Source: an uncultured Duodenibacillus sp. (GTDB taxonomy: Bacteria > Pseudomonadota > Gammaproteobacteria > Burkholderiales > Burkholderiaceae_F). From it: a stretch of 64,000 bases of DNA. Below the pieces are notes generated by a model. It saw only the letters and a list, made by a program, of their open reading frames with translations, searched no databases and was not told the DNA's origin. Positions 47,235-64,000 of the stretch are shown here, piece after piece (position 1 is the first letter of the stretch; each line of letters starts with the position of its first letter). The stretch lies in NCBI GenBank assembly GCA_944390745.1, contig CALXQK010000004.1:62001-126000 (forward strand), read 5' to 3'. The translations under genes and the position numbers were made by a program.

Positions 47235-47238
47235 TCAG

Positions 47239-47340: not shown

Positions 47341-48456
47341 CTAGATGCGCATCGGCATGAGGACGTAGCGGAACTGCTCGCTTTCGGGCATTGTGAGCAG
47401 CGTGGCGCCCTGGTTGCTGGCAAAGGCAAAGCGCACTTCCGTGTTCTTGAGATTGCCGAGAACGTCGAGAAGGTAGACGACGTTGAAGCCCAGGTCGAGC
47501 TCGTCGCCCTCGTAGTTGATGGAGATCTCCTCGTCTGCCTCCTCCATCTCCGAGTTTGCGCTCTGGATCTTGAGCGTGCCCGGGGAGATGAGCCAGCGCA
47601 GCCCCTTGAACTTCTCGTTGGCGAGAATGGCCGCGCGCTTCAGGGCGCCGATGAGCTCCTCGCGGTTGACAAGGAAGATCTTGTCGTTGTTCTGCGGAAT
47701 GACGCGGTTGTAGTCGGGGTACTTGCCGTCGACGAGCTTGGACAGGAACTCAATGTTGCCGAAGCTGAAGCGCGCCTGCATCTTGTTGATTTCAAGCTTG
47801 ACGGGGTCGTCGGTGTCGGGCAACAGCTTCATGAGCTGGTGCACGGTCTTGCGCGGCAGGATGGAGTCCACGGACTGCTGCAGATCGGCGCCGACGTCGA
47901 CCTGCGCGTCGCAGCACGCCAGACGGTGCCCGTCAGTGGCCACGGTGCGCACAAGCCCCTTTTCAATCGTCAGCAGCATGCCGTTGAGGTAGTAGCGGAT
48001 GTCCTGCTGGGCCATGGCAAAGTGCACCATCTGCATGAGGTGCTTGAGCACGTTGGCCGGCAGCGTGAAGGTGTGCTCAATCTCGGCCACGGGCAGCACC
48101 GGGTACTCATCGGCAGCCATCTGCGAGAGGGTGAAGCGCGAGTTGTTGGCGCGCAGCACCACCTTGCGTCCCTCGGTGAGCATGGACACCTCGGTGCCGG
48201 CGCTCGGCAGGGCCGTCAGCAGCGCAATGAGCTTGGCGGCCGGAACCGTCACGGTGACGGGCTCGGATCCCAGGCCGATCTGCGCGCTCGTGCGAATCTG
48301 GATTTCCAGGTCGGTTGTGGTGAAGGTGACTTCGCTACCGTTTGCATTGACCAGAATATTGGACAGAATCGGAAGCGTCTGGCGTCCCTCGACGATGCCT
48401 CCAACAATCTGCAGAGGCTTCAGAAGCGCTTCTCGCGTGGATTGGATGAACTGCAT
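47341..48456 (-). CDS. dnaN: DNA polymerase III beta sliding clamp
   Basis: The clamp holds DNA polymerase III on DNA. The 371-residue protein starts MQFIQSTREALLKPLQIVGGIVEGRQTLPILSN, with the three-fold repeat of the clamp domain, EYPVLP in the centre and the C-terminal YVLMPMRI that forms part of the binding pocket. It lies 132 bases downstream of dnaA and 199 upstream of gyrB. Confidence 0.97.
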   Translation of the reverse strand: MQFIQSTREALLKPLQIVGGIVEGRQTLPILSNILVNANGSEVTFTTTDLEIQIRTSAQIGLGSEPVTVTVPAAKLIALLTALPSAGTEVSMLTEGRKVVLRANNSRFTLSQMAADEYPVLPVAEIEHTFTLPANVLKHLMQMVHFAMAQQDIRYYLNGMLLTIEKGLVRTVATDGHRLACCDAQVDVGADLQQSVDSILPRKTVHQLMKLLPDTDDPVKLEINKMQARFSFGNIEFLSKLVDGKYPDYNRVIPQNNDKIFLVNREELIGALKRAAILANEKFKGLRWLISPGTLKIQSANSEMEEADEEISINYEGDELDLGFNVVYLLDVLGNLKNTEVRFAFASNQGATLLTMPESEQFRYVLMPMRI

Positions 48457-48588
48457 GAAATCAACCTTTGTCTAAACGAAATTTTGAAGCCGGAGAAAGT
48501 ACGCGGCCGTTCATGGATTCTAAAGAAAGCAACGCGTCCGTGCGCATTTTGTGCGCGCGAAAAATAGGGCGTGAAGCGTTGATTTCCC

Positions 48589-49947
48589 TTAGCTTTTGAT
48601 CTTCTGCTCGAGAATGTGCAGATCGTACTTGAGCTCTTCGTCGCGGTTGCGCTCGGCGGCGATCTTCTTGCAGGCGTAGATCACCGTGGCGTGGTCGCGC
48701 CCGCCGAAGAGCTCGCCGAGTTCTGGCAGGCTCTTCTTGGTGAGTTCGCGCGCAAGATAAATCGCAACCTGCCTGGCGCGCACGAGCTTGGCCTTGCGCG
48801 ACTTTGAGTTGAGCTCGGCCACCTTGAAGCCGTAGTGCTGCGCCACGGTCTGCTGAATGGCATCGATGGTGACGGGCACGCTGCTCGCCTTGAAGATGTC
48901 CCGCAGGGCGAGCTTGACGGTGTCGATCGTGACGTCGACCTGGTGAAAGCGCGTGTAGGCGAGCACCTGCTGCACGGCTCCCTCGAGCTCACGGACGTTG
49001 CTCTTGAGGTTTTTGGCGATGATCTCGGCCACCTCGCGGGGCATGTTCAGGCCCGAGCGCTCGGCCTTGAGCAGGAGGATCTGAACGCGCATGTCGAACT
49101 CCGGAGGCTCGATCGTCACAATCAGCCCCTGCGTGAGGCGGCTCAGCAGCCGCTCCTGGAAGTCCTTGAGGTTGCGCGGATAGGTGTCGCTCGTGAGCAC
49201 GATCTGCTTGCCGTGCGGCACCATGTTCTCAAAGGTGAGAAAGAAGTTGGTCTGCGTGCCCTCTCTGTTTCCGAAGCTCTGGATGTCGTCGATCAGAAGC
49301 AGGTCGAGTCCCTTGTAGCGCTCGTTGAAGCGGCGCATGTCCTCGGCAAAGCGCTCGCGGTTGACGTTGCTCAGGCGCATGATGTCCAGAAATTCCTGGA
49401 TGTACTGCTGCGCGCTGATGCAAAGCACCTTTGCCTTCGGGTTGTTCTTGAGAAAGCGGTTGCCGATGGCATGCATCAGGTGGGTCTTGCCCAGGCCCAC
49501 GCCGCCGTAGATGAACAGCGGGTTGTAGATGGTGCTGGGGCTCGAGGCGACCTGGATGGCCGAGGCATAGGCCATCTGGTTGGCCTGTCCCTCGACAAGA
49601 TTTTCGAATGTGAGGCTCGGCAGGAGCCCGGTCCTGGCAATGTCGGCGTCGGTCGGACCCTGGGACTGCATGTCGGGTGCGGCCGCCGCAGGGGCTGCGC
49701 CGGCCTCATCTGCCACCTCCCAGTTGATGTCGATCTCCCGGCCCGCGATGCGATTGACAGTCTGCCCAATCGTTTCGCCGTAGGCTTCAATCACCTTGCG
49801 CAGCTTGGCGCTGGAGTCGGCGTAGATCGTCACCACGCCCGCCTCAAGCTCGGCATCGGCCGTCAGATCGGCAAACCAGTTCTGATAGATCTGTTGAGGC
49901 GTCGACTCGCGCAGCGCATCAAGACATTGGGTCCAAAAGTCGTTCAT
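48589..49947 (-). CDS. dnaA: Chromosomal replication initiator DnaA
   Basis: DnaA binds DnaA boxes in oriC and opens the DNA. Domain I (MNDFWTQCLDALRESTPQQIYQNWF), a linker (about 80-110), the AAA+ domain with Walker A GGVGLGKTHLMHA (148-160) and Walker B LLLIDDIQS, and domain IV with the box-recognition motif GGRDHATVIYACKKI near residue 415. Length 452. The upstream gap to rpmH contains one exact DnaA box, a likely autoregulatory site. Confidence 0.97.
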   Translation of the reverse strand: MNDFWTQCLDALRESTPQQIYQNWFADLTADAELEAGVVTIYADSSAKLRKVIEAYGETIGQTVNRIAGREIDINWEVADEAGAAPAAAAPDMQSQGPTDADIARTGLLPSLTFENLVEGQANQMAYASAIQVASSPSTIYNPLFIYGGVGLGKTHLMHAIGNRFLKNNPKAKVLCISAQQYIQEFLDIMRLSNVNRERFAEDMRRFNERYKGLDLLLIDDIQSFGNREGTQTNFFLTFENMVPHGKQIVLTSDTYPRNLKDFQERLLSRLTQGLIVTIEPPEFDMRVQILLLKAERSGLNMPREVAEIIAKNLKSNVRELEGAVQQVLAYTRFHQVDVTIDTVKLALRDIFKASSVPVTIDAIQQTVAQHYGFKVAELNSKSRKAKLVRARQVAIYLARELTKKSLPELGELFGGRDHATVIYACKKIAAERNRDEELKYDLHILEQKIKS

Positions 49948-50098
49948 TTTTATCTAGGAAAACACCCCCGCGGACCCGGGCCGGAAAAATCCGGCAGGCC
50001 TTCTCATTTTCTGGAGTCGGTAGTCGTGCCGCTGACGGGGAGTATGCAGGTGGTCAGACAGAAGAATCGGGATCGGATTCTAGCGGCTGAGCGAAAAG

Positions 50099-50107
50099 TT
50101 ATCCACA
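50099..50107 (+). promoter_or_regulatory. DnaA box (TTATCCACA)
   Basis: Exact match to the high-affinity DnaA consensus, about 150 bases upstream of the dnaA start. Suits autoregulation of dnaA and/or origin function. Confidence 0.75.
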
Positions 50108-50288
50108 GCCCCGTTCCTTGATTGACGCGCCCTGGCAGGGGGATTTCCGGGAAAATTCAGAGGCGTCGACACGACCGGTTGTGGTCATTGGGGAGCGTCC
50201 CTCTACATGCTGTGCATGTGTTGCGGAAATGCGTACATTCACGGAGAGGGCAAAAAATCCGGCTCCCTGACGATTTACATGGCCGGAG

Positions 50289-50318
50289 TTGACAGATTGG
50301 ACTGAAATAGGGTTTAAT
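50289..50318 (+). promoter_or_regulatory. Sigma70-type promoter toward rpmH
   Basis: TTGACA (50289-50294) and TTTAAT (50313-50318) with an 18-base spacer: a perfect -35 and a one-mismatch -10. It lies almost 300 bases before rpmH, so the transcript would have a long leader. Confidence 0.6.
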
Positions 50319-50615
50319 ATCAGGCTTTTCACAGGCGCAGATCGTAGCAGCCGGCGGCAAGCCGGGGGCTGAGGCGCGTCTGATGCTGTCCGGCGCCCGC
50401 ATTTCCCGGGGTTTCCTGAGGACGGCGCGGCCTGCTGAAAATGAACGTCTTTTCGAATCCGCGGATTCCTGCGACGCCTTGCAGCTGATCCGCGGTTGTG
50501 TTGTTTTTCACGATGAAGGGCCGGACCCCGGCGCCTGGCATCGAGCCCTGCTTTCGGGGCTTGCGCGCCCGTCCGATGCTCATCGTTTCCTTTGACTTGA
50601 AGGTAAGGAAATATC

Positions 50616-50756
50616 ATGGCTACCAAGCGTACGTACCAACCCTCTAAGATCAAGCGTGCCCGCACGCACGGCTTCCTGGTTCGCTCCCGCACCAAGGGCG
50701 GCCGCGCCGTCCTGGCCCGCCGTCGCCGCAAGGGCCGTCACACCCTCGCTCTCTAA
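50616..50756 (+). CDS. rpmH: 50S ribosomal protein L34
   Basis: A 46-residue, very basic protein: [20 protein letters not shown], then [15 protein letters not shown] and the ending LAL. The TYQPS and RTHGF motifs identify L34. AAGGA lies eight bases before the ATG. It differs from most L34 proteins in having [10 protein letters not shown] rather than MKRTYQPS. Followed by rnpA after 41 bases, the universal order. Confidence 0.96.
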
Positions 50757-50797
50757 CTTCGGACGTCTCGACTCGAAAAGACGTCTCTCGAGCAATT

Positions 50798-51253
50798 GTG
50801 ACGCAAGACCGGCCCGGGTACCGATTTCCAAAGTCGGCGCGAATTCTGAATTCGGACGACTTCGGCGCTCTTTTGCGATCGGACGGGCCGGGCGCCATCC
50901 GACTCGGACGTGATGCTGTTTCTTTGTGTGCCCAGGCACACCGGAAAACGGGTCGCGTCCGTTTTGGTTTTACGGTCGGCAAGCGCAACGTTCCGCTCTC
51001 GGTGGACCGCGCGCTCGTCAAGCGCATTCTGCGCGAGGAGTCGCGCCAGACGCTGCCAGCGCTCAGGAAGGACTGCGAGCGGTTCGGAATCGGACTTGAC
51101 GTGAGTCTGCGGTTTCGGGTGCCTCTGCGCACGACCGGCGCCCGGGTGACGCTTGGCCAGGCCCGGGAGCTGGTTCGACGCAGCACGCGGCTTTGTCTGT
51201 CGGCCATGAGAAGGCGCCTTGAAGGCGCGGCAAGGGCGCTTGACGGCGCGTGA
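50798..51253 (+). CDS. rnpA: Ribonuclease P protein component
   Basis: The protein subunit of RNase P, which matures tRNA 5' ends. The 151-residue sequence starts with GTG and shows YRFPKSARILNSDDFGALL, RFGFTVGKRNVPLSVDRALVKRILREE and a basic C-terminus. The signature RNRxKR is altered to RALVKR, with the asparagine replaced. Position between rpmH and yidD supports the identity. It overlaps the possible GTG start of yidD. Confidence 0.9.
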   Translation: MTQDRPGYRFPKSARILNSDDFGALLRSDGPGAIRLGRDAVSLCAQAHRKTGRVRFGFTVGKRNVPLSVDRALVKRILREESRQTLPALRKDCERFGIGLDVSLRFRVPLRTTGARVTLGQARELVRRSTRLCLSAMRRRLEGAARALDGA

Positions 51254-51258
51254 CGGGC

Positions 51259-51534
51259 ATGCGCTCACCGCTGGCGAAAATCTTCATTGCGCTTGTGCGC
51301 CTCTACCAGCTCACATTGTCGGGCTGGGTCGGGTGGCAGTGCCGCTTTGTTCCCACCTGCTCGAACTACGCGATCGAGGCTTTCGAGAAGCACGGTGCCC
51401 TCAAGGGGCTGTGGCTGTCCGTGATCCGGCTGCTGCGTTGCCATCCGCTGGGCAGCTGCGGGTATGATCCCGTACCGGACGAATTCCGCTGGAAGTGCTG
51501 GCGGCATGATCATCATGCCGGGCGCTCGCAGTAG
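51259..51534 (+). CDS. yidD: Membrane protein insertion efficiency factor YidD
   Basis: A 91-residue membrane-associated protein that assists YidC-dependent insertion. The family core is complete: CRFVPTCSNYAIEAFEKHG, GLWLSVIRLLRCHPLG and GYDPVP. The ATG at 51259 is six bases after the rnpA stop; a GTG at 51250 in the same frame would overlap rnpA (GTGA) and is an alternative start. Confidence 0.92.
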   Translation: MRSPLAKIFIALVRLYQLTLSGWVGWQCRFVPTCSNYAIEAFEKHGALKGLWLSVIRLLRCHPLGSCGYDPVPDEFRWKCWRHDHHAGRSQ

Positions 51535-51575
51535 CTCTCTTTTTTGATCTTTTTCTCCACTCATCAGGACCTGAA

Positions 51576-53312
51576 ATGGGAAGTGATTTCAAGCGAACCT
51601 TCATGTGGGTGATCCTGGTCGGCGCCTGCTTCATGCTGTGGGACAACTGGCAGGTCTACAACGGACGACCCTCATTCTTCGGCGGTGCAGCTCCGCAGAC
51701 GGCCCAGACTGAAGAGGCCCAGCCGAGCGCGGATGCCGTTCCCGACAACAAGGGAAGCGGCGCCGAGGCCGTTGCCAAGGGAATGATTCAGGCCTCCAGG
51801 CCTGTCGAGGTCTCCAACAACCTGCTCAAGCTCAACATCGATGAACAGGGTGCGGTCGTCACGCGCGCCGAGCTGCTGCAGGAGCACCAGCAGGCCGACT
51901 GGACGGACGTGGGTCTTGCCGGGCTGATTCTTGGAAACAAGCCCCCCCAGCTCAAGAACATCGTCATGCTTGACGTCACGCCCAAGCACGTCTATGTGGC
52001 GCAAAGCGGCCTGATTGGCGGCGATTTTCCCAATCACAAGTCCCCCTTCAAGCATGTTGGAACCAAGGTTGAGAAAAAGCTTGACGCCGAGCAGAAGAAG
52101 GAGGTGAACTTCGTCACGGCCACCTTCGAGAGCACGCAGGGGGCGGTGACGCTTCGCAAGAGCTTTGAGCTTGCCGACGGCCGCTATGCGGTCATGGTTC
52201 GCAACGAGGTGATCAACAACGGCACGGCTCCCGTCAAGCCGTCGCTTTACTATCAGATCACCCGAGACGACAACAAGCCCGAGGGCGAGAGCTCGTTCTA
52301 CTACACCTACACGGGGCCTGCCATCTATACCGACGAGGGCAAGTTCCAGAAGGTCGCCTTTGACGACATCGGCGAGCAGCCCGACCACATCACCAAGGCT
52401 GACAACGGCTGGGTGGCGATGATCCAGCACTACTTCATCACGGCCTGGACTGACGACAAGGCCGAGAAGGTCAAGCGCGAGCGCGAGTACTACACCACCA
52501 AGCTCGACAAGAACCTCTTTGCCGTGGGCTCCATCCAGCGGCTCGGCACGATCGAGCCCGGGCAGAGCCTGTCGACGTCCGCCATGCTTTACATCGGTCC
52601 GCAGGATCAGCAGCGTCTGCAGTATCTTGCCGACGGCCTGGAGCTTGTGGTCGACTACGGCTGGCTGACGTTCCTTGCCAAGCCGATCTACTCGGTGCTG
52701 TACTTCCTCTACGGCCTGGTGGGCAACTGGGGCTGGGCCATTGTGCTTCTGACCTGCATTGTGAAGGCCATCCTCTACCCGATCTCGGCTGCGGGCTACA
52801 AGTCCATGGCGCGCATGAAGGAGATTGGACCGCGCATGAAGGCGCTTCAGGAGCAGTACGGCGAGGACAAGCAGCGCTATCAGCAGGCGGTGATGGAGCT
52901 CTACCGCAAGGAGAAGATCAACCCCGTGGGCGGATGTCTGCCGATTGTTCTGCAGATTCCGGTGTTCCTGGCCCTCTACTGGGTGCTTCTGGCAAGCGTG
53001 GAGCTGCGCGGCTCGGCCTGGCTCGGCTGGGTGACCGACCTTGCCATGCCTGATCCCTGGTTCATCCTGCCGGCGATCATGATGGCGACGATGTTCCTGC
53101 AGATCAAGCTCAACCCGAAGCCCGCCGACGCCATGCAGCAGCGCATGATGGTGATCATGCCGCTCGTCTTCGGCGTGATGTTCTTCTTCTTTGCCTCGGG
53201 TCTCGTGCTCTACTGGCTCACAAACAACGTGCTCTCGATTCTGCAGCAGTGGTACGTCAACAAGCAGATTGCCGAGGAGCGCGCCAGAAGAACCAAGGCT
53301 GCCAACCGGTAG
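51576..53312 (+). CDS. yidC: Membrane protein insertase YidC
   Basis: YidC inserts proteins into the inner membrane. The 578-residue protein has an N-terminal helix (FMWVILVGACFMLWDNW), a periplasmic beta domain (about 60-350), then five helices including WGWAIVLLTCIVKAILYPIS, the conserved arginine region, GGCLPIVLQIPVFLALYWVL and LVLYWLTNNVLSILQQWYVNK. The stretch QYGEDKQRYQQAVMELYRKEKINP is the cytoplasmic loop. A terminator follows 70 bases downstream. Confidence 0.97.
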   Translation: MGSDFKRTFMWVILVGACFMLWDNWQVYNGRPSFFGGAAPQTAQTEEAQPSADAVPDNKGSGAEAVAKGMIQASRPVEVSNNLLKLNIDEQGAVVTRAELLQEHQQADWTDVGLAGLILGNKPPQLKNIVMLDVTPKHVYVAQSGLIGGDFPNHKSPFKHVGTKVEKKLDAEQKKEVNFVTATFESTQGAVTLRKSFELADGRYAVMVRNEVINNGTAPVKPSLYYQITRDDNKPEGESSFYYTYTGPAIYTDEGKFQKVAFDDIGEQPDHITKADNGWVAMIQHYFITAWTDDKAEKVKREREYYTTKLDKNLFAVGSIQRLGTIEPGQSLSTSAMLYIGPQDQQRLQYLADGLELVVDYGWLTFLAKPIYSVLYFLYGLVGNWGWAIVLLTCIVKAILYPISAAGYKSMARMKEIGPRMKALQEQYGEDKQRYQQAVMELYRKEKINPVGGCLPIVLQIPVFLALYWVLLASVELRGSAWLGWVTDLAMPDPWFILPAIMMATMFLQIKLNPKPADAMQQRMMVIMPLVFGVMFFFFASGLVLYWLTNNVLSILQQWYVNKQIAEERARRTKAANR

Positions 53313-53385
53313 CATCCAGCAGGTCCCCTGCCGCTCTGCCCCCTTTGGTCAGGCGGGGCTGAGGGGCCGGTCCGCAAGAAAAGCG

Positions 53386-53425
53386 AGGAGAGCCGTCCCG
53401 GCATGGGATGCTCTCCTTTGTTTTT
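53386..53425 (+). terminator. Intrinsic terminator after yidC
   Basis: AGGAGAGC (53386-53393) pairs with GCTCTCCT (53410-53417) around a 16-base loop, followed by TTGTTTTT to 53425. Confidence 0.8.
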
Positions 53426-53459
53426 CGTGCGGCGGGCGGTCTGTCCGCCGGTCCTTCCC

Positions 53460-53774
53460 CTAGCGATTCCTGCGGCGGCTCGAGACGGCGTGCGCAATGA
53501 CAAGAAGCGGCCAGAGCCAGGCGCTGACAAACCACAGGACGGTCTGACCGAGCGTCATCGGCTTTCCCTCGGCGTCCTTTGTGAGAATGAAGATGCTGAT
53601 GGCGCCCACCACGGACCACAGCAGCAGTCCGCCGTAGATGAGCACGCGCGTGTCGTAGTCATCCCCCATGACCGAGGCAAGAAATGCAGCCGCGGGCACG
53701 GAAGCCACGACCGCAAGGCAGGCGCCAAGAAGTGCAGCGCCAAACAGCGTGTTCTTTTTGTTGGGAAGGCTCAT
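53460..53774 (-). CDS. Small membrane protein of unknown function
   Basis: A 104-residue protein with three likely membrane helices (LFGAALLGACLAVVASVPAA, VLIYGGLLLWSVVGAISIFI, LGQTVLWFVSAWLWPLLVIA) and a basic tail. I do not recognise a family. The ATG at 53774 (MSLPNKKNTLFG) is the best start. It is a lone minus-strand gene between yidC and mnmE. Confidence 0.55.
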   Translation of the reverse strand: MSLPNKKNTLFGAALLGACLAVVASVPAAAFLASVMGDDYDTRVLIYGGLLLWSVVGAISIFILTKDAEGKPMTLGQTVLWFVSAWLWPLLVIAHAVSSRRRNR

Positions 53775-54110
53775 GGGAAAATCCACAAACGCAGAAAAAT
53801 CCTGCAGGGCAAAGGGCGGCCGGCACGGGCAAAATGCCGCCTCAGGGAGGATCATACCTTCTGCCTTGCGTTGTCTGCGGCCCTGCTGACGATTTCTTCG
53901 GATGTCCGGTGCGGCCTGCGATGGATTGTCGTCCCGGCAAGGCGGGGATAAAACTGGAGGCCAGGCCTTTGTACGGCTCTTTTCAACGAATCAAATCAGT
54001 TGAATCGAACTCTCTGCAAGTGGTTGATAATAAACGCATAAATAAGACTTAATTTCGTTTATTCAACGGGATAGTTTGAATAATCAAAGTTAAATTCATG
54101 GGGCGAAGCA
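53775..54110. other. mnmE upstream region
   Basis: 336 bases: the left part is ordinary GC-rich sequence, the right part (about 53990-54105) is AT-rich and must hold the mnmE promoter. A TTGAAT at 54000-54005 lacks a well-spaced -10. An inverted repeat (54074-54089) close to the ATG is described separately. Confidence 0.5.
54074..54089. promoter_or_regulatory. Palindromic element upstream of mnmE
   Basis: GTTTGAATAATCAAAG, an inverted repeat with one imperfect outer pair, 21 bases before the mnmE start. Read on the other strand it matches the element upstream of parA at 15 of 16 positions. Confidence 0.4.
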
Positions 54111-55484
54111 ATGGAAACGGACAAGGACCCGATCATCGCCCGGGCAAGCGCGGCAGGACGCGGAGGAATTGGAATCATCCGCATTTCCGGCAGTGAGGAG
54201 AACCTGCAGCAGTTGTTGAAGGCGCTCTTCAAGGACCGGAGGATTGAACCCCGACATGCGCATCTTCTGCCGGTGCGGGATGCCCAGGACAACATCATCG
54301 ACCAGACGATCGTGCTCTACTTTCCCGGGCCCGCCTCCTATACCGGAGAGACGGTGCTGGAAATTCAGGCGCACGGTGGGCCGGCGGTGATGCAGATGAT
54401 CATCAGCCGATGCATGGAGCTTGGAGCCAGCATGAGATTGCGCCAGGCGCAGCCCGGGGAGTTTTCCAGGCGCGCCTTTCTCAACGGGCGCCTCGATCTG
54501 GCGCAGGCTGAGGCCGTTGCCGACCTGATTGAGGCGTCAAGCCAGGCTGCCGCCCGTGCGGCGGCCCGCTCAATGCAGGGCGAGTTCTCCCGTGAGGTGC
54601 TCCGGATCAACGGGGATCTTCTGGAGCTGCGGGCGTACATCGAGGCCACGATCGACTTCCCGGAAGAGGAGGTGGACTTCATTGAAGACGGGCACGTCAA
54701 CGAGCGCGTTGAGTTCATTGCCGGAGAGCTTGAGGCGCTTTCAAAAAATGCCCTGCGCGGCAAGGTGCTGCGCGACGGCTTGACCGTTGTGCTCGTTGGA
54801 GCGCCCAATGTCGGCAAAAGCTCGCTCATGAATGCCCTGGCCCGGGAGGAGGTTGCCATCGTCACCGACATCGCCGGGACGACGCGAGACAAGATTGATC
54901 ATGCGGTCAATCTCGACGGCCTGACGGTCAATCTCATTGACACGGCGGGCGTCCGGAGGACCGACGACAAGGTCGAGCGCATCGGCATTGAGCGCACGCT
55001 TCAGGCGGTGGAAAGCGCCGACGTGGTCGTGCATCTGACGAGTGCAGACAGAAGCGATCAGGACAATCTTGAGGAGACGATGCGCTTCATTGGCCCGAGA
55101 CTGCGCGACGGCGTGGTGTTTCTTCAGGTGAAAAACAAGATGGATCTAAGCACTGGAACTGAAGAGATTCCAGAAGACTACATCTTGATCTCCGCAAAAA
55201 CAGGTCAGGGGCTTGAGGATCTTGTTGGGCGCCTGAAGGACATTGCCGGCGCCTGCGACGGCGCCCAGGGGGACTTTCTCGCCCGAACCCGTCATCTGGA
55301 CTGCATTGCCCGGGCGCTTGACCATGTCAATGTGATTCGCGGCGGCGTCGGTTCCCGCGTGGGTCTTGATATTGCGGCCGAGGAGCTTCGTCTTGCCGGG
55401 CTGGCGCTGGGAGAAATCGTGGGGCAGACCGTTGCAGACGACCTGCTGGGCATGATCTTTTCCAAGTTTTGCATTGGAAAATAA
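54111..55484 (+). CDS. mnmE: tRNA modification GTPase MnmE
   Basis: MnmE, with MnmG, modifies the wobble uridine of certain tRNAs. The 457-residue protein has the N-terminal tetrahydrofolate-binding domain (IIARASAAGRGGIGIIRISG), the G domain with G1 GAPNVGKSS near residue 228, G3 DTAGVRR and G4 NKMD, and the C-terminal CIGK that takes part in modification. It ends in a hairpin with an embedded parS site. Its partner mnmG lies 2.4 kb downstream, separated by a transposase-like gene. Confidence 0.97.
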   Translation: METDKDPIIARASAAGRGGIGIIRISGSEENLQQLLKALFKDRRIEPRHAHLLPVRDAQDNIIDQTIVLYFPGPASYTGETVLEIQAHGGPAVMQMIISRCMELGASMRLRQAQPGEFSRRAFLNGRLDLAQAEAVADLIEASSQAAARAAARSMQGEFSREVLRINGDLLELRAYIEATIDFPEEEVDFIEDGHVNERVEFIAGELEALSKNALRGKVLRDGLTVVLVGAPNVGKSSLMNALAREEVAIVTDIAGTTRDKIDHAVNLDGLTVNLIDTAGVRRTDDKVERIGIERTLQAVESADVVVHLTSADRSDQDNLEETMRFIGPRLRDGVVFLQVKNKMDLSTGTEEIPEDYILISAKTGQGLEDLVGRLKDIAGACDGAQGDFLARTRHLDCIARALDHVNVIRGGVGSRVGLDIAAEELRLAGLALGEIVGQTVADDLLGMIFSKFCIGK

Positions 55485-55505
55485 GACATCTCCAGGATGT
55501 CGAGG

Positions 55506-55535
55506 CGAAGGATGTTTCACGTGGAACATCCTTCG
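55506..55535 (+). terminator. Hairpin after mnmE with parS embedded
   Basis: A 30-base, almost perfect palindrome with 11-base arms (CGAAGGATGTT at 55506-55516 and AACATCCTTCG at 55525-55535) starts 22 bases after the mnmE stop. It is followed by TGTTGATTTCTT, a weak U-run. The 16-base parS core lies in the centre, extended by seven matching bases on each side. Confidence 0.6.
55513..55528. promoter_or_regulatory. parS site 1
   Basis: TGTTTCACGTGGAACA, the ParB-binding centromere sequence, downstream of mnmE and within a larger hairpin. One base differs from the four symmetric copies. Confidence 0.93.
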
Positions 55536-55578
55536 TGTTGATTTCTTCCTGCGGGATCGCTGGCCCCGAGTGAAGGCG

Positions 55579-55598
55579 TTCGGATGCCTACATCCGAA
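55579..55598. other. Hairpin over the stop codon of the transposase-like gene
   Basis: TTCGGATG (55579-55586) and CATCCGAA (55591-55598) form a perfect 8-base stem with loop CCTA. The loop holds part of the stop codon (55588-55590) of the minus-strand gene. No U-run follows on the minus strand. Confidence 0.4.
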
Positions 55599-57132
55599 GC
55601 CAGAGCTTTCCGCTGACGGCGTCCGTCGGGCTGTTGAACCGGGTCCCGAGGCTGGAGGCAAGTTCTGCAAGCCGGGAGATCCGGGGCGGCTCGGACAGAC
55701 CGACCGCTTGCATGAGAAGAGATTGTTCGCTCAACTCTTGGCTGTTTTCGAATCTGTCGGACTCTGCCGATGTGATGCGCAGGAAAAGAACCTGCTCGTT
55801 TTCGGAAGCAGAATCTCGTGAAGGAATTTTGACTGCAAGCACTCGAGCCTCGGAAAGACCTTGAACGATGGCCTCCAGCGGCAGCCGTACTCCCCTTTGC
55901 TCTGACTTCTGCTGCAGAAGACGCAGCATCAGGGCTGCAAGCAGGGAGGCTGCAATGAGGCCCTGCTCAAGAACCGGATGATCATCGTCCTCTGAATGGT
56001 GTATGAGTCTTCTCATCATGGACGAGGCATGCCAGTACAGCGGCTCCCAGAGGCGGCAGATGCGGGCGATATCCTCCTTCGTGGCGGCCTTGCTCCTCTC
56101 TGCATTGCAAAGCCAGAATGAGAGCCCTTGATGCCTGTGAAGAGAGCTCGCCTGAGGCTGCTGCAGCGGCGCCTCAAGCGCATTCATTGACAGCATTTCC
56201 ATTGCCTGCCGGTGCATGGCGGCGGTCTCTTCTGCGCCTGTTGGATTTCTGACAAGCAGTCCTGTATTGAAGGAAGTCTGCGGCAAAACTTCCCTGAGCG
56301 ACACCCGGTCCAGAAGTTTGAAGTACCATCCCGACCCGTCGCCCGGAAGCTGCCTGAAGCTGGAGAAATCCTGGAAATGCCCCTCAAGAAGACGCTGAAC
56401 ATCCGACGGGCTCTGCGCAAACTGTTTGCCGGTGGAAACTTCAAACCCAAGCGGAAAGCCACGGTCATCAACCAGGGCGACAAGTCGATCTGTAGAGGAG
56501 GCTCGCAGAAGCCCGGAGGCATTCCGAATCCAGACCGCGGCTTCAGTGCTCAAGGCAAGCTTTCTGGAAATCCACTGAAAAAGAGCGTGCTGATGCCTGC
56601 CAAGAAACTCCAGAACGTCCCGGCGCGTCTGAGCGTCTGCGGGGACTTGCAAAAAGCCCAGCCATGTGTTGGAAGGCTCTGCGCGGAACATGGCCTTGGT
56701 TTGCTTTCCCAGTGCCAGATCACAAATCAGAAGAAAAATCGCCTTCTGAAAGGCTGGGGTCGGTTGAATGACATCTTTCAAGGTTCGAATTTTCTCTGGA
56801 AGAGCCAGAGCGCCGTTCCAGAGCGAACGCAGGACATAGTGACCATAATGAAACTCCGGGAAGATTCCCGGGAACGCTGACCTGCTGGAGATCCTTTCAA
56901 GAAGCTCATCCAGGCCGCCCAGCCGGGATTGCTCATCAAGCTGCCTGCGGTTGCGGCGGGCGCCAGCGAGCTCCTGCTTGAGTTTCTCAACGGCAAGAGG
57001 ATCCTTTTGTAGCAGCGCATCGAGCCTCCCAAGGTTCCTGACGACGCGCTTTTGTGTGCGTCCTTCTGCATCGCGATAAGACTCAACGATGCGAACGTAG
57101 CGGTGCGGCGCACCGTGGATTTGAACAAACAT
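55588..57132 (-). CDS. IS1634/IS4-type transposase-derived protein, catalytic residues apparently lost
   Basis: A 514-residue intact frame between mnmE and mnmG. The N-terminus RYVRIVESYRDAEGRTQ with KRVVRNLGRLDAL (residues 11-40) matches the start of IS1634-type transposases. GFPLGFEVSTGKQ (225-237) corresponds to the family GFPLGYEVFxGN motif, and the C-terminal helices around LLAALMLRLLQQK and PLEAIVQGLSEARV fit the family end. The first catalytic aspartate, expected in a DxTxxYF segment about 25-45 residues before GFPL, is not there (AAVWIRNASGLLR); a VADRGM-type second aspartate is also not seen. I found no flanking inverted repeats or target duplication. The gene is bracketed by parS sites. 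It may be a domesticated transposase or a slowly decaying relic; the full-length open frame favours the first. Confidence 0.65.
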   Translation of the reverse strand: MFVQIHGAPHRYVRIVESYRDAEGRTQKRVVRNLGRLDALLQKDPLAVEKLKQELAGARRNRRQLDEQSRLGGLDELLERISSRSAFPGIFPEFHYGHYVLRSLWNGALALPEKIRTLKDVIQPTPAFQKAIFLLICDLALGKQTKAMFRAEPSNTWLGFLQVPADAQTRRDVLEFLGRHQHALFQWISRKLALSTEAAVWIRNASGLLRASSTDRLVALVDDRGFPLGFEVSTGKQFAQSPSDVQRLLEGHFQDFSSFRQLPGDGSGWYFKLLDRVSLREVLPQTSFNTGLLVRNPTGAEETAAMHRQAMEMLSMNALEAPLQQPQASSLHRHQGLSFWLCNAERSKAATKEDIARICRLWEPLYWHASSMMRRLIHHSEDDDHPVLEQGLIAASLLAALMLRLLQQKSEQRGVRLPLEAIVQGLSEARVLAVKIPSRDSASENEQVLFLRITSAESDRFENSQELSEQSLLMQAVGLSEPPRISRLAELASSLGTRFNSPTDAVSGKLWLRM

Positions 57133-57319
57133 CAGAGGAAATCAACATTGAAATAAACCACAATATACCACCATTATGTATCTATAAAATACAAACAAAA
57201 ACAAAGGCCAATCTGAATGACGCAGGCAGATTTGATCAAGATGAAGAGCCTTGAAAATAAAGAATCGAGCGCAAGGACCGGACATTCAGGCGATTGATAT
57301 ACTGCATGCTCCAGAAAGA

Positions 57320-57335
57320 TGTTCCACGTGGAACA
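57320..57335. promoter_or_regulatory. parS site 2
   Basis: TGTTCCACGTGGAACA, perfect palindrome, flanked by GA and TT. Confidence 0.95.
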
Positions 57336-57392
57336 TTTGGTGACGTTGATCTGCTTCATCCCCCATCAAGTTGAAATGGATCCCTCACCTGA

Positions 57393-57408
57393 TGTTCCAC
57401 GTGGAACA
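57393..57408. promoter_or_regulatory. parS site 3
   Basis: TGTTCCACGTGGAACA, perfect palindrome, 73 bases from site 2 start to start. Confidence 0.95.
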
Positions 57409-57766
57409 TTGAACAACCAGACCTTTGTTCAGAAGGATGATTGCGGGTCATCCGTTGATATGTTTGGGCGCGTGACGTCAGGACTCGACAGTCTTGTTTG
57501 GCGAAACGGCGCCTGGCGGACGGCGGGGCTTTGAGACCAAGGCCGTCGACTGACCAGGTTTGATTCGTCCCGCGGCGGCCAGGGCTGTCTGAAGAAGGAC
57601 AGCGGCTGCGAGCCGTTGACCCTGGTTCCGTGTCCCGCAAACAGCGACGGAATCTGCAGGTGTTTGTCGTTCTGGAATTCAATAATTGGAAAATCGGCGT
57701 TTTCTCTTTTACCTGACGGCAAGGATGTTCGCCGGGGTTTGATGAATGATTCTGCATTTCAATGAA

Positions 57767-57782
57767 TGTTCCACGTGGAACA
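57767..57782. promoter_or_regulatory. parS site 4
   Basis: TGTTCCACGTGGAACA within AATGAATGTTCC...AACATTCATT, so the palindrome extends by several bases on each side. Confidence 0.95.
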
Positions 57783-57844
57783 TTCATTGCGTCAGGCGGT
57801 GTCTTCAAAAACAGAGAAACAAAGGCCTGTTGTTCAGACGTCGA

Positions 57845-57860
57845 TGTTCCACGTGGAACA
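57845..57860. promoter_or_regulatory. parS site 5
   Basis: TGTTCCACGTGGAACA flanked by TCGA on both sides, extending the palindrome. Confidence 0.95.
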
Positions 57861-57891
57861 TCGAGGATGCAGGCAGTGAAACAGCGAATAA

Positions 57892-57907
57892 TGTTTCACG
57901 TGGAACA
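57892..57907. promoter_or_regulatory. parS site 6, at the mnmG start
   Basis: TGTTTCACGTGGAACA ends three bases before the mnmG ATG. Its GTGGAAC half lies where the ribosome-binding site should be. Confidence 0.92.
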
Positions 57908-57910
57908 AAG

Positions 57911-59818
57911 ATGAACTACCCTGAAGCATTTGATGTAATTGTCGTCGGCTGCGGTCATGCCGGAGCAGAGGCGAGTCTTGTTGCCGCCCGAATGGGGGCA
58001 AGGACGCTTCTCGTGACGCACAATGTAGAAACGATTGGCCAGCTATCCTGCAATCCTTCCATCGGAGGAATTGGCAAGGGGCACTTGGTAAAGGAAGTGG
58101 ATGCCATGGGCGGCGCCATGGGTGTGGTGACGGATCTTGCCGGCATTCAGTTCCGAATTCTGAACAGCTCCAAGGGGCCTGCTGTTCGTGCGACGCGAGC
58201 TCAGATTGATCGAAACTTGTATCGCGTGGAGATGCGCCGCCGCATTGAGAACCAGCAGAATCTCTGGATTTTTCAGCAGGCAGTCGACGATCTGATTGTT
58301 GAAGAAGACAAAGTCTGCGGCGTTGTGACCCAGACCGGAATACGGTTCTCTTCGAAGACGGTGGTTCTTTGCGCCGGGACGTTCCTCAACGGACTGGTGC
58401 ATATTGGTCTGGATCATTACTCGGCCGGCCGCGCAGGAGATCCCCCGTCGATTTCACTTGCGAAACGATTGATTGAGCTTGGTCTTCCAAGGGGGAGATT
58501 GAAGACGGGAACTCCAGCACGCATCGATGGTCGATCCATTGACTTCTCCAGGTGTAAGGAGCAGCCGGGGGATCTTGCTCCGGTTCCGTTCTTCTCCCTG
58601 ATGGAGCCTGGAATTGAACACCCGCGGCAGGTTCCGTGCTGGATCACCTATACGAATGAGCGAATGCACGACGTCATTCGCGCCAATCTTGATCGTTCCC
58701 CGATGTACTCTGGAATCATTGAAGGGATTGGCCCGCGTTATTGCCCCTCCATCGAGGACAAGGTGATGCGCTTCAAGGACAAGACGAGCCACCATGTTTT
58801 TCTGGAGCCGGAGGGGCTCGATACAAACGAGTTCTATCCAAATGGAATCTCAACATCCCTTCCGTTTGATGTGCAGCTTGAGATGATTCATTGCATCCCG
58901 GGGCTTGAGAATGCACATCTGCTGCGGCCTGGCTATGCCATTGAGTACGATTTTTATGATCCGCGCGAACTGAAGAGAACGTTTGAAACGAAGTTTTTGA
59001 AAAATCTCTACTTTGCCGGCCAGATCAACGGAACCACTGGTTATGAGGAGGCTGCGGCGCAGGGGCTGCTTGCCGGAGTGAATGCGGCCTCAAGAGCGCT
59101 TGGGCGTGAGGAGTGGACTCCGAGACGGGATGAGGCCTACATCGGGGTCATGGTTGATGATTTAACCACGCGCGGCGTCACGGAACCCTACCGGATGTTT
59201 ACGAGTCGTGCGGAATATCGCCTGAGTCTTCGCGAGGACAATGCAGATGTACGGCTTGCAGAGCTCGCACATTGCATTGGAGCTCTTCCCGAGGAGAAGT
59301 GGCGGCGATTCTGCACCAAGAGGGAAACTGTTGAACGCGAATTGCAGCGTTTGAAGACCACCTGGGTGAATCCCGCGATGCTGAAGGCGGGTGAGGATGC
59401 GCGGGTTCTTGGAACATCGATTGAACGCGAGTACAACCTTTCAGCTCTGTTGTCTCGCCCAGGAGTTCGGTATCAGGACCTGATGACGCTTAAGAAGGCT
59501 GATGATGCCCTGGTGAGCCCCGATAGCCTGTCGGATGGCCTGCAAATTGAACAGCTGGAGATCGCGCTCAAGTACCAGGGCTATATCGAGCGGCAGAAGG
59601 ATGAGGTGGAAAAGACCCGTGCGCATGAAACGATGCGGATCCCGGAAGACATTGACTACGACAAGGTCACCGGACTCTCCTTTGAGGTGCGGCAGAAACT
59701 CAAGCAGATCCGCCCTGAAACGCTGGGACAGGCAGGACGGATTTCCGGAGTGACGCCTGCTGCCATTTCCCTTCTGCTGATTCATTTGAAGCGCTTGAAG
59801 TGGGATAGAAAGTCATGA
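57911..59818 (+). CDS. mnmG: tRNA uridine-5-carboxymethylaminomethyl modification enzyme MnmG
   Basis: The FAD-binding partner of MnmE. The 635-residue protein starts [22 protein letters not shown] with the FAD fold, then [22 protein letters not shown] and the second family motif [17 protein letters not shown]; the C-terminal helical domain binds MnmE. The ATG at 57911 is the family start; the open frame further upstream runs through parS sites and is not coding. rsmG overlaps its stop by four bases. Confidence 0.97.
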
Positions 59819-60477
59819 CACTGGAATTGAATGCTGAAAAAATCCAGGCGCGTGCTGGGGAACTGCTCGCAATGACGCTTTCAGAGGAGGAGGCCTCGCG
59901 CCTTGCTCGCTTTGCCGAGCTGCTTGCGAAGTGGAATGCAACGTACAACCTCACGAGCATTACGCGCCCGGAGGATGTCTTGGATCTGCACCTGATGGAC
60001 TCGCTGGCACTGGCTCAGTGTTCCCGGGATTTGCTCAGCGGCAGCAAAAAGGTTCTCGATGTGGGCAGCGGTGGCGGCCTGCCTGCGATTCCGCTTGCCA
60101 TTGTGAGGCCGCAGCTTGAAATTACCATGGTTGATGCCGTGCAGAAGAAGACGATCTTTCAGCGGCAGGCGATTGCGCTTCTCAGGCTGACGAATATTCG
60201 TGCGCTCCATGCCCGTGTTGAGCAAATCAAGAACCAGTGCTTTGACGTCATCACGAGCCGTGCCTTTGCATCGCTTTCCGATATGGTTCGACTCACAGCA
60301 CCGCTTCTATCGGAAAACGGCATCTGGCTTGCCATGAAGGGGAAGCTTCCCCAGGACGAAATCGATGCTCTGCCTGAAAATGTCGCAGTCGAAGAGATTA
60401 TTGGCATTGAAAAATTGAATTTCGACCGTCATTTAATTGTCCTCAAAAAAATTTCCGTGGATGGGAATTCGGTTTGA
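59815..60477 (+). CDS. rsmG: 16S rRNA (guanine527-N7)-methyltransferase
   Basis: RsmG (GidB) methylates G527 of 16S rRNA. The 220-residue SAM-dependent enzyme has [26 protein letters not shown] and [20 protein letters not shown], with [12 protein letters not shown] near residue 150. Start and mnmG stop overlap as ATGA, indicating coupling. Confidence 0.95.
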
Positions 60478-60852
60478 GGTCATTTATTTCGGAGTTGTTT
60501 TTCCGTTGAAAATGCCGATTTTCGTGAAAACATCGGCTGCTGGATGATCAGAAAACAGGGAAAAAAATTTTGCGCTTTTGAGAGAAAAGGGATCGCAACA
60601 CTGGCAAAATTTCAGGACGAACCAAATTTTTTTCCAAAGAAAAAGAATGGAGTTTTCCTCAGGCGTGATGCACGCATTCTCAAGGAAAATGCGGCGAGGA
60701 ATTTTGGGGAGACCCCATGAACAGCACGCCGCCGGTCTCCTGACCAGGGGAGATTGTTCGTCCAAACAAACGGTGCGGTGCAGGGGAAAGGTGAAGGTTT
60801 TAAAAAGTTTGATTATTCAAACTTAATTCAAGTCAGAAGGAACAGGCAAGGG
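60478..60852. other. rsmG-parA intergenic region
   Basis: 375 bases, AT-rich at 60480-60660. I see no gene longer than a few codons, no DnaA box and no parS site. The parA promoter should lie in the right part, next to the palindrome at 60807-60822. Confidence 0.55.
60807..60822. promoter_or_regulatory. Palindromic element upstream of parA
   Basis: GTTTGATTATTCAAAC, a perfect inverted repeat (six-base arms, TTAT centre), 30 bases before the parA ATG. It nearly equals the reverse complement of the element before mnmE. Confidence 0.45.
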
Positions 60853-61647
60853 ATGGCTTACATTTTTTGCGTCGCCAACCAGAAGGGAGGCGTTGGAAAA
60901 ACGACGACGGCGGTCAACACGGCCGCAGCGCTTGCGCGTCGCCGCCAGAAGGTGCTTCTTGTTGATCTCGATGCCCAGGGCAATGCCACGATGGGCTCCG
61001 GCGTGGAGAAAAACGAGTGTGAAAAGACGGTCTACCAGCTTCTGATCGGCGAGGCGGTCTTTGATGATGTGGTTTGCAAGAGTCCGAGCGGCGGCTACGA
61101 CCTCATCCCCGCCAACCGGGATCTGTCTGCGGCCGAAATTGACCTCATGCAGCTCAAGAATCCCGACCGGCGTCTCAAGAACGTCATCGACAAGGTGGCC
61201 GACCGGTACGACTTCATTCTCATCGACTGCCCTCCGTCGCTGTCGATGATTACCGTCAACGCCCTGTGCTGCGCGCACGGGGTGATCATCCCGATGCAGT
61301 GCGAGTACTTTGCGCTCGAGGGGCTGAGCGACCTTGTCAACACCGTGCGCCGCATTCGCCAGAACAAGAATGCCGATCTGCAGATCATCGGTCTGTTGCG
61401 CGTGATGTTCGATGCGCGCATGACGCTGCAAAAGGAGGTGAGCGAGCAGCTCAAGGAAAATTTCGGCGACCGGGTCTTTGACACCGTCATCCCCCGCAAC
61501 GTCCGGCTGGCCGAGGCGCCCTCCTACGGCGAGCCTGGCATCGTCTACGACAAGACGAGCCGCGGAGCCCGGGCCTACCTTGCCTTCGGCCGCGAGCTCA
61601 TCAAGCGCATGAAGGACCGCGACGCTCAATCCAACGAGGAGGAATAA
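60853..61647 (+). CDS. parA: Chromosome partitioning ATPase ParA (Soj)
   Basis: ParA forms ATP-dependent gradients that move ParB-parS complexes. The 264-residue protein starts MAYIFCVANQKGGVGKTTTA with the deviant Walker A motif KGGVGKTT at 11-18, then LLVDLDAQGNATMGSG (Walker A') and FILIDCPPSLS (Walker B). There is no N-terminal helix-turn-helix, so this is the short chromosomal type. parB follows three bases after its stop. Confidence 0.96.
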   Translation: MAYIFCVANQKGGVGKTTTAVNTAAALARRRQKVLLVDLDAQGNATMGSGVEKNECEKTVYQLLIGEAVFDDVVCKSPSGGYDLIPANRDLSAAEIDLMQLKNPDRRLKNVIDKVADRYDFILIDCPPSLSMITVNALCCAHGVIIPMQCEYFALEGLSDLVNTVRRIRQNKNADLQIIGLLRVMFDARMTLQKEVSEQLKENFGDRVFDTVIPRNVRLAEAPSYGEPGIVYDKTSRGARAYLAFGRELIKRMKDRDAQSNEEE

Positions 61648-61650
61648 ACC

Positions 61651-62577
61651 ATGGCTGCAACCAAGAAGCTCCGCGGACTGGGCCGCGGTCTGGACACGCT
61701 TTTGGGCGACGACGTTCCGAAGGCTCCCGCAAGAAAGACGACGGCTGCGCCTGCGGCGCCCGAGGCGCCCTCCGAGAACATGGTGGTGGAGCTTGAGCTC
61801 ACGCTGCTCAAGGCCGGCAAGTATCAGCCCCGAACGCTCATCGAGCAGGAGAAGCTTGCCGAACTGGCCGAGTCGATCAAGCAGCAGGGCGTGATCAGCC
61901 CCATCATCGTGCGCCGCAGCACCAACGGCCGCTATGAGATCATTGCGGGCGAACGGCGCTTCAGAGCCTCCAAGATTGCCGGTCGAAAGACGATTCCCGC
62001 CATCGTGCGCAAGGTTGAGGACAAGGACGCGCTTGCCATGGCGCTCATTGAAAACATGCAGCGCGAGGATCTCAATGCCATGGAGGAGGCCCTTGGGGTG
62101 AAGCGGCTCATCGATGAGTTCGGCTACACCCATGAGCAGGCGGCTGAGGCGATCGGGCGCAGCCGCTCGGGCACGACGAACCTGCTGCGGCTTCTGAATT
62201 TGACCGATCCGGTGCAGCAGATGCTTGTCGATGGCAAAATTGACATGGGGCATGCCCGCGCCCTGCTGTCGCTGGCCGGCGCCGAGCAGATCCAGGCCGC
62301 CAATGAAATTGCCGCCCGGGAGCTTTCGGTGCGCGAGGCCGAGAAGCTCGTGGCGCAGATGGCCGCCCAGCCGCGGACCAAGGCCGCCAGAAAGCCCCCG
62401 AAGGTCAATCGCGACGATCAGATTCTCGAGGAAAGGCTCTCGGAGTCGATCGGCGCGCCTGTTCACGTTGTCTACGGACGCAAGGGCAAGGGGCAGCTGG
62501 TCATCGACTTTGCCAATTTCGATGATCTGGACGCCCTGATCGCAAGGATCGCTCCAGGCGTCAAGGAAGAAAATTAG
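61651..62577 (+). CDS. parB: Chromosome partitioning protein ParB (Spo0J)
   Basis: ParB is a CTP-dependent clamp loaded at parS. The 308-residue protein has the N-terminal ParA-binding segment (KLRGLGRGLDTLLGD), the CTP-binding motif GERRFRAS (100-107), ENMQREDL (124-131), a helix-turn-helix (THEQAAEAIGRSRSGTTNLLRLL) and a C-terminal dimerisation domain. Six parS sites lie 4-6 kb upstream. GAGGAGG-like sequence before the ATG is a strong ribosome site. Confidence 0.96.
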   Translation: MAATKKLRGLGRGLDTLLGDDVPKAPARKTTAAPAAPEAPSENMVVELELTLLKAGKYQPRTLIEQEKLAELAESIKQQGVISPIIVRRSTNGRYEIIAGERRFRASKIAGRKTIPAIVRKVEDKDALAMALIENMQREDLNAMEEALGVKRLIDEFGYTHEQAAEAIGRSRSGTTNLLRLLNLTDPVQQMLVDGKIDMGHARALLSLAGAEQIQAANEIAARELSVREAEKLVAQMAAQPRTKAARKPPKVNRDDQILEERLSESIGAPVHVVYGRKGKGQLVIDFANFDDLDALIARIAPGVKEEN

Positions 62578-62596
62578 TCCGGGCTGCAGGGGAAAT

Positions 62597-62637
62597 AAGG
62601 GGTTATACCTACAAAGTAATACCCCCTATAAGCCCTT
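62597..62637. other. Imperfect hairpin after parB
   Basis: AAGGGGTTATA (62597-62607) and TATAAGCCCTT (62627-62637) pair at ten of eleven positions. No U-run follows; at most a weak terminator of the parAB transcript. Confidence 0.35.
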
Positions 62638-62644
62638 CAGCCAC

Positions 62645-62673
62645 TTGTTAAAAAGTGTGAGAATCCATAAAAT
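62645..62673 (+). promoter_or_regulatory. Sigma70-type promoter of the atp operon
   Basis: TTGTTA (62645-62650) and TAAAAT (62668-62673) with a 17-base spacer, 28 bases before the atpI start. Confidence 0.65.
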
Positions 62674-62701
62674 TGCGCCGTTTTAGGGACAGAAGCACGG
62701 T

Positions 62702-63058
62702 ATGAATCGTGAGGAATTGATCCGTATCGTCGCGTGGCAGTATGTGTTCGTCTGCGTGGTGGCTGCCGTCGCCTGGCTTGGCTGGGGGATGGTCGCCGGT
62801 CTTTCCGCGCTGGGCGGAGGAATGTGCGTCGCTGTACCCAACTCCATTTTCGCGCTCAATCTGATTCTGACGCAGATGGCGAGAAAGCCGGTGAGGCCGA
62901 CGGGCGTCATCGTCGGAGAGTTCCTCAAGATGATCGTCATCTGCGCGCTCTTTGTGCTGATGGCGAAGTTCTTCCCGGGGTTGAACTGGCCTGCAATGCT
63001 GGCGGGAATCGTCGCCGCCGTGTTCGGGCAGTTTGCCCTTGTCTTTTCTAAACACTAA
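62702..63058 (+). CDS. atpI: ATP synthase subunit I
   Basis: A 118-residue membrane protein with four hydrophobic helices (VFVCVVAAVAWLGWGMVAG, LGGGMCVAVPNSIFALNL, FLKMIVICALFVLMAKFF, MLAGIVAAVFGQFALVF). It heads the atp operon and helps assemble the c-ring. Identity rests on position before atpB and on the helix pattern; sequence conservation in the family is low. Confidence 0.85.
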   Translation: MNREELIRIVAWQYVFVCVVAAVAWLGWGMVAGLSALGGGMCVAVPNSIFALNLILTQMARKPVRPTGVIVGEFLKMIVICALFVLMAKFFPGLNWPAMLAGIVAAVFGQFALVFSKH

Positions 63059-63073
63059 ACCGAAGGATTGGTT

Positions 63074-63907
63074 ATGGCTACGACTGAAGCTCTCAGCCCG
63101 ACTGGGTACATGCTTCATCACCTTGCACATAATGCCTCAGGAAAAATGGCGTCGATCATCGACTTCTCGGTGATCAACTACGACACCATCGTGTTTTCCG
63201 TTCTCATGCTCTGCGTCGGCTTGTGGCTGCTTTATCGCGGCGCCCGCAAGGCGACCAGCGGCGTGCCCGGCAAGTGGCAGTGCGCGGTTGAAATGCTCGT
63301 CGAGATGGTCGAGGAGCAGAGCAAGTCGATCGTCCACGGCGATCGCTCGTTCATCGCTCCGGCGGCTCTGACGGTCTTCGTCTGGGTTGTCCTGATGAAC
63401 GCCATCGACTTGATTCCGGTGGATCTGCTGCCCTGGCTTGCGAGCCTGGTTGGCATTCACTACCTGCGTCCGCTTCCCACCGCCGACCTCAACGGCACGC
63501 TCGGCATCTCGGTGAGCGTGCTGCTGCTCTGCATCTACTACGGCTTCAAGGTCAAGGGCGCCGGCGGCTTCGTGCACGAGCTCTTTTCTGCGCCGTTCGG
63601 CAACAACGTTCTGCTGTGGCCGTGCAATTTCGCCCTGAACATCGTTGAGTACATCGCCAAGACCGTCAGTCTCGGTATGCGACTCTTCGGCAACATGTAC
63701 GCAGGCGAACTGGTGTTCTTCCTGATTGCTCTTCTGGGCGGCTACGCGCTTTCCTTCGGCGCCGTCGGCGGATCCCTGAGTGCACTCGGTCAAGTCGTGG
63801 CCGGCCTTTGCTGGTGGCTGTTCCACATTTTGATTGTTCTTCTGCAGGCGTTCATCATGATGATGCTGACCTTGGTTTACCTCGGTCAGGCGCATGAGTC
63901 GCACTGA
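63074..63907 (+). CDS. atpB: ATP synthase F0 subunit a
   Basis: Subunit a forms the proton half-channels next to the c-ring. The 277-residue protein has about six helices; the essential arginine is in YIAKTVSLGMRLFGNMYAGEL, and FVWVVLMNAIDLIPVD is the typical upstream motif. The ATG at 63074 has AAGGA upstream; a TTG at 63068 is in frame but less likely. Confidence 0.95.
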   Translation: MATTEALSPTGYMLHHLAHNASGKMASIIDFSVINYDTIVFSVLMLCVGLWLLYRGARKATSGVPGKWQCAVEMLVEMVEEQSKSIVHGDRSFIAPAALTVFVWVVLMNAIDLIPVDLLPWLASLVGIHYLRPLPTADLNGTLGISVSVLLLCIYYGFKVKGAGGFVHELFSAPFGNNVLLWPCNFALNIVEYIAKTVSLGMRLFGNMYAGELVFFLIALLGGYALSFGAVGGSLSALGQVVAGLCWWLFHILIVLLQAFIMMMLTLVYLGQAHESH

Positions 63908-63971
63908 CGGAATTTTTCCTCCATCCTTTTTTCTTTCTTTTCTTCCCTCACGGAAACTTAAGGAGTTTGCA

Positions 63972-64000
63972 ATGACCAACGTTGCTATGGTTGCCCTGGC
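63972..64000 (+). CDS. atpE: ATP synthase F0 subunit c (start only)
   Basis: Only nine full codons are present before the window ends: MTNVAMVAL. AAGGAG (63959-63964) gives a strong ribosome site, and the position after atpB is where atpE belongs. The identity is inferred from position and from the N-terminus. Confidence 0.75.

Follow-up and report, generated by a model that had tools for sequence, protein, structure and literature searches.

The open reading frame between mnmE and mnmG in the window, the whole stretch of 64,000 nucleotides that was analysed, is judged from its sequence to be probably (rough probability 0.6) a host gene that descends from an IS1634 transposase. This frame, P0001, had been described in an earlier note on the same DNA as a 514-codon open frame, and it is intact, with an ATG start, 514 amino acids and zero internal stops. 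The frame and its surroundings comprise the following features.

54111-55484, forward strand: flanking gene, which we take by homology to be mnmE
55513-55528: parS 1, directly behind mnmE and enclosed by a hairpin of 14 pairs (55505-55536)
55588-57132, reverse strand: P0001, ORF derived from an IS1634 transposase (ORF call, NF033559, hhalign)
55588-55980, reverse strand: C-terminal domain of P0001, residues 385-514, sharing ELASSLGTRF with the IS1634 subfamily of G008
55981-56556, reverse strand: eroded RNase H-like catalytic core of P0001, residues 193-384
56557-57132, reverse strand: N-terminal domain of P0001, residues 1-192, the part most similar to intact transposases
57293-57303, forward strand: ATTGATATACT element, an 11-mer
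57320-57335: parS 2
57393-57408: parS 3
57767-57782: parS 4
57845-57860: parS 5
57892-57907: parS 6
57911-59818, forward strand: flanking mnmG, its start set by homology with relatives
61651-62577, forward strand: parB, with parA immediately ahead

The search with TGTTTCACGTGAAACA at up to three mismatches gave six parS sites against 0.14 expected, a number reached in none of 100 shuffles. All six match TGTTYCACGTGRAACA, which has no other exact match in the 2.22 Mb genome, and they flank P0001 as the earlier note had described, one on the mnmE side and five on the mnmG side. The hairpin of parS 1 is followed by T-rich sequence, so this site may also end mnmE transcription. Terminator-like sites numbered 11 in the region against 2.9 in shuffles, and no RNA families were found in 47000-64000 of the window at gathering thresholds. 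One promoter-like site was present in the region, on the strand opposite P0001 and in the number expected by chance, and no Shine-Dalgarno sequence was seen by eye ahead of the P0001 start.

Sequence, profile and fold comparisons point to an IS1634 transposase as the origin of P0001. With hhalign the ORF was homologous to ten IS1634 transposases of the family over 464 columns (probability 99.6, E 7e-25), the N- and C-terminal parts being recognisable. The NCBIfam profile of these transposases, NF033559, matched with E 6e-5 at 22 bits, far below its curated cut-off of 100. The transposase similarity noticed earlier is thus clear, and also the motifs quoted for it (RYVRIVESYRD...NLGRLDAL and GFPLGFEV) are present. 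Pfam DDE_Tnp_1 was found in all three intact IS1634 relatives scanned, and no Pfam match in P0001; the PDB sequence search with P0001 had a best E of only 0.96, and the 24 stretches that fitted a pattern in the scan of the genome collection included none encoding a relative. The AF2 model of P0001 had a mean pLDDT of 63 and a poor core (<50 in residues 253-349). Its best PDB chain in Foldseek was the Tn5 transposase (probability 0.89), a match that is not significant by its E of 0.04. For the model of a sister-species ORF (mean pLDDT 70) the Tn5 transposase was again the top match, though a weaker one (probability 0.54, E 0.12).

The mnmE-mnmG slot was readable in nine genomes of the genus including the window's (G009 was counted despite its inverted mnmE; G003, in which a contig end cuts the slot, was left out). 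An IS1634-derived ORF occupies it in three of the nine, the window's genome (G000), G004 and G006, which form a clade in the MnmE+MnmG tree (support 99/98). The ORFs of the two sister species occupy this slot too and likewise run antisense to mnmE, with 554 aa in G004 and 557 aa in G006 (the latter frame, listed with 573 aa from a GTG, was read from the ATG matching G004). From the ORF stop to the mnmE-proximal parS there are 59 bp in the window and 57 and 58 bp in the sister species. Also ATTGATATACT is identical in all three species and is single copy in each of their genomes; counted from start to start, it precedes a parS by 27 bp in the window and by 30 bp in both sister species. At 0-1 mismatches it was absent from all six spacers of other species, and it occurs once in G005, on a different contig. 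Any of the thirteen 11-mers common to the sister pair appeared in 35 of 20,000 mononucleotide shuffles of the window region. The fixed address expected of a domesticated transposase was therefore found: G000, G004 and G006 agree in slot, strand and spacing, although their ORFs come from different IS1634 subfamilies. The earlier reading depended on conservation of the gene between mnmE and mnmG and on its not being absent from all close relatives; a gene of this kind was present in the two nearest sister species, the slot of the closest relatives being occupied.

Three other species of the genus (G005, G007 and G009) have parS-bearing spacers of 1.7-1.9 kb in which the longest listed ORF has 101 aa. 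These long spacers (L044:1534-3285, L046:7836-9574 and L060:2044-3978) are nearly as long as those that contain an ORF. The ORF may have been lost from them; searches for its remnants there gave nothing significant, with a best tblastn E of 0.03 and, with the profile, nothing under E 5. Because these parS regions are without a long ORF, the slot gene is dispensable for parS function in general. Elsewhere in the genus the spacer measures 871 bp (G008), 149 bp (G002) and about 213 bp (G001). Outside the genus, the mnmE and mnmG matches of 25 genomes shared a strand and were less than 1 kb from each other, with 3-250 bp between them; in the remaining genomes the matches were farther apart, on separate contigs or absent. 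In G009 a 546-aa gene (L060:3979-5619), presumably ThiC from its C-terminal cysteine motif, lies between the inverted mnmE and the parS cluster. Both sister ORFs are preceded by a doubled, operator-like motif resembling ATAGTGTCTA (about L042:8195-8225 and L043:7615-7645), of which no clear equivalent was seen by eye in the window.

The catalytic triad D, D, E is invariant in all ten IS1634 relatives that are intact by sequence, and the complete triad belongs to the definition of the IS1634 family in an excerpt of PMC2266710. P0001 does not have it. The position of the first aspartate (Asp-1) is taken by R203 (codon 56524-56526) at the end of the predicted strand 197-204, with no Asp there, and the earlier statement that the catalytic aspartates are missing was thus right for Asp-1. 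For the second aspartate it may not hold, as D275 in 'KLLDR' (codon 56308-56310) is a candidate and may be Asp-2. The glutamate is doubtful: hhalign needed a gap to place E363 (codon 56044-56046) there, and the R and K found after the Glu in the ten intact rows are missing behind it. The sister ORFs have retained Asp-1 and have no residue that stands for Asp-2 or Glu; at Asp-2 there is a deletion, or for G006 in one alignment an Asn.

P0001 has the sequence similarity of an IS1634 member and not the multiple copies, being a single copy in its genome, where no IS1634-profile match was found at E<=1e-5. Beta-clamp binding is known for IS1634 (excerpt of PMC4549789). No beta-clamp Q-motif was found at the C-terminal end of the P0001, G004 or G006 ORF, the one match of the Q-motif regex in P0001 being at residue 447, well short of that end. 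IS1634 insertion sequences have terminal inverted repeats and a target duplication of 5-6 bp. The best inverted repeat round P0001 was the perfect 10-bp TGTTGATTTC at 55536-55545 and 57138-57147 (maximum 8 in 20 shuffles), one arm of which lies 6-15 bp before the start codon; it could be a relic of the ends of the insertion sequence or due to chance. At the sister ORFs the best repeats had 7 bp in G004 (shuffle maximum 6) and 6 bp in G006 (shuffle maximum 8). Among the multi- or full-length IS1634 controls, L062 and L068 exceeded their shuffles, both with 17 (maxima 11 and 10), and L064 (13, a tie with the maximum of 13) and L071 (8, maximum 11) did not. The absence of terminal repeats at P0001 is thus weakly shown, as this ungapped test is a weak one that only two of the four controls passed. 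An intact triad with matching terminal repeats, which would speak against the earlier reading, was not found.

The slot ORFs of G004 and G006 share 41% identity, against 91% for MnmE of the same pair. Their nucleotide identities by codon position were.559,.676 and.411, and pN (.377) was lower than pS (.724) in 300 of 300 bootstraps. The dN/dS ratio was about 0.23 (NG86), a rough value because dS is near saturation, and dN was about tenfold that of mnmE (0.528 vs 0.055). By domain, the pair was identical at 106 of 190 positions (56%) in the N-terminal domain, 66 of 236 in the core and 50 of 114 in the C-terminal domain. Purifying selection, named in the earlier note as a check, was accordingly found in the sister pair, and P0001 is outside the range of the measure: its dN/dS is not computable because it is too divergent from the sister ORFs and has no close enough orthologue. 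Its own sign of selection is only the open frame. In simulated neutral drift, P0001 frames stayed open in 10 of 300 cases at 0.1 and in 1 of 300 at 0.2 substitutions per site; with the G004 ORF none of 300 did so at 0.1. The GC content of P0001 (0.567) is between those of mnmG (0.546) and mnmE (0.605). The sister ORFs (0.419 and 0.406) are near mnmG of their genomes (0.435 and 0.449) and below six further IS1634 ORFs from these two genomes (0.503-0.524).

The parS region might also be a tolerant spacer and P0001 a decaying, functionless IS1634 insertion that has lost its ends and core and kept its frame by chance. Many genomes of the family carry IS1634 copies (33 of 67 exceed the cut-off), selection on P0001 alone is beyond test, and the 10-bp repeat could be what remains of the ends. 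Moreover, intact dead frames can arise elsewhere, as shown by a core-deleted IS1634 ORF in G033. We nevertheless consider such decay unlikely, as the sister-species ORFs are open and constrained, the composition is near that of host genes, and slot, strand and spacing are the same in three species. The G033 ORF (L067:1419-2693) has 424 aa with most of the core deleted and lies away from mnmE and mnmG. It was found at full length once, the next best match in the 67 family genomes having 39% identity over half of it (G008), and a further match elsewhere in G033 is a 54-residue fragment with 65%.

It is rather more doubtful that the protein would be a regulator of just two promoters, its own and the divergent one of mnmG, and would play no role in segregation. 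P0001 and mnmG are indeed divergent, and between them is the element ATTGATATACT, which among the spacers compared occurs in those of the three ORF-bearing species. However, this element could be nothing more than the promoter of mnmG, and its binding by the protein is only putative. Still less probable is a dominant-negative repressor or competitor at IS1634 ends that checks active copies and has the centromere only as a safe address. Both end domains of the protein were modelled with more confidence than the core and are more conserved than it in the sister pair, and the window's genome is without profile matches, as such repression would have it; for the same reason there is no evident target there today. 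G006 and G004 have 12 and 4 IS1634 matches (the slot ORF itself may be counted), so repression would be incomplete in them, and the parS address is left unexplained. A recent mobile insertion is ruled out by the single copy, the host-like composition, the sister counterparts and the divergence from every IS1634 found.

The slot ORFs may not all have the same source. The tree grouped P0001 with the IS1634 subfamily of G008, G033 and G013 (support 96/98) and the sister pair with that of G034b, G006b and G077b (support 95/95). AU tests of five alignments, two of them of the N- and C-domains alone, all rejected a single clade of P0001 and the sister ORFs at p<0.01 (0.0085, 0.0032, 0.0004, 0.0040 and 0.0031), a result that carries the long-branch pull of the model, the P0001 and G006 rows being odd in amino-acid make-up. 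The local score of P0001 was 46 with G004 (200 shuffles: mean 38.6, maximum 58) and 64 with G006 (mean 38.8, maximum 57), the latter above chance because it exceeds the shuffle maximum. Simple orthology from a single origin was not accepted as shown, since one clade is rejected by AU and the G004 score is within the shuffles. The sister-pair ORFs are separated by a path of 1.16 against a species path of 0.09, and at that rate an orthologue of P0001 is expected at about 4 substitutions per site, where trees are unreliable. The 57-59 bp spacing and the common ATTGATATACT element favour one locus, and together with the species clade they stand against separate sources. From these sequences the slot may have been filled twice, its first occupant may have been replaced later, or a single captured gene may have diverged extremely, and we lean slightly towards more than one source.

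Recruitment of P0001 as a non-transposing binding protein, as proposed in the earlier note, is supported at the sequence level by the loss of Asp-1, the common slot and the purifying selection in the sister pair. The eroded core and the retained end domains suggest a binding protein. P0001 would no longer transpose and would have been retained as a binding protein that most likely recognises a DNA site with its N-terminal domain, which in the ancestral transposase presumably bound the transposon ends. That this site is parS or adjoins it is a guess. The protein would have a local effect on the stretch from mnmE to mnmG that ParB covers, where it might bridge or insulate the parS array, or control its own expression and that of mnmG. 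The most economical reading is a DNA-binding protein that works locally within this ParB zone, and from the address of the gene we infer that it may have a role in partition. Compared with IS1634 transposases, P0001 is without Asp-1, has an eroded core, is single copy and has an address common to sister species.

Pogo-type recruitment at centromeres has taken place independently in fission yeast, and Cas1, the Xer recombinases and ParA act as enzymes. According to an excerpt of PMC7386202, CENP-B and other proteins derived from pogo transposases are under purifying selection, and the triad of CENP-B is not recognisable. The dead transposase at parS looks like a bacterial counterpart of such transposon-derived centromere proteins: both are transposase-derived, CENP-B being a centromere protein and the P0001 gene lying at a bacterial centromere. 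They differ in that the transposase families are not the same, the triad of P0001 is surely lost at one position, and P0001 is known at parS by its gene address. Cas1 from casposases, Xer recombinases and ParA are prokaryotic proteins exapted from mobile elements (excerpt of PMC8987985), and they are, as P0001 would be, host genes from mobile-element genes, partly for chromosome upkeep; the excerpt names no protein at parS that stems from a transposase. Among the matches listed from open-licence PMC papers, none described such a protein at the parS locus of a bacterium. Transposase-derived centromere proteins are already known from eukaryotes, and one at a bacterial parS would be new.

In Duodenibacillus, two IS1634 subfamilies in one parS slot, alike in strand and spacing, with an eroded core and kept binding domains, may by analogy with the path from pogo to CENP-B suggest that dead transposases have more than once become proteins resident at the centromere of bacterial chromosomes, a generalisation that we regard as speculative and unlikely to hold. 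Should the protein have its effect at the parS region, it would be a lineage-specific partitioning component besides the general ones, and bacteria would be a second domain of life with transposases recruited at centromeres.
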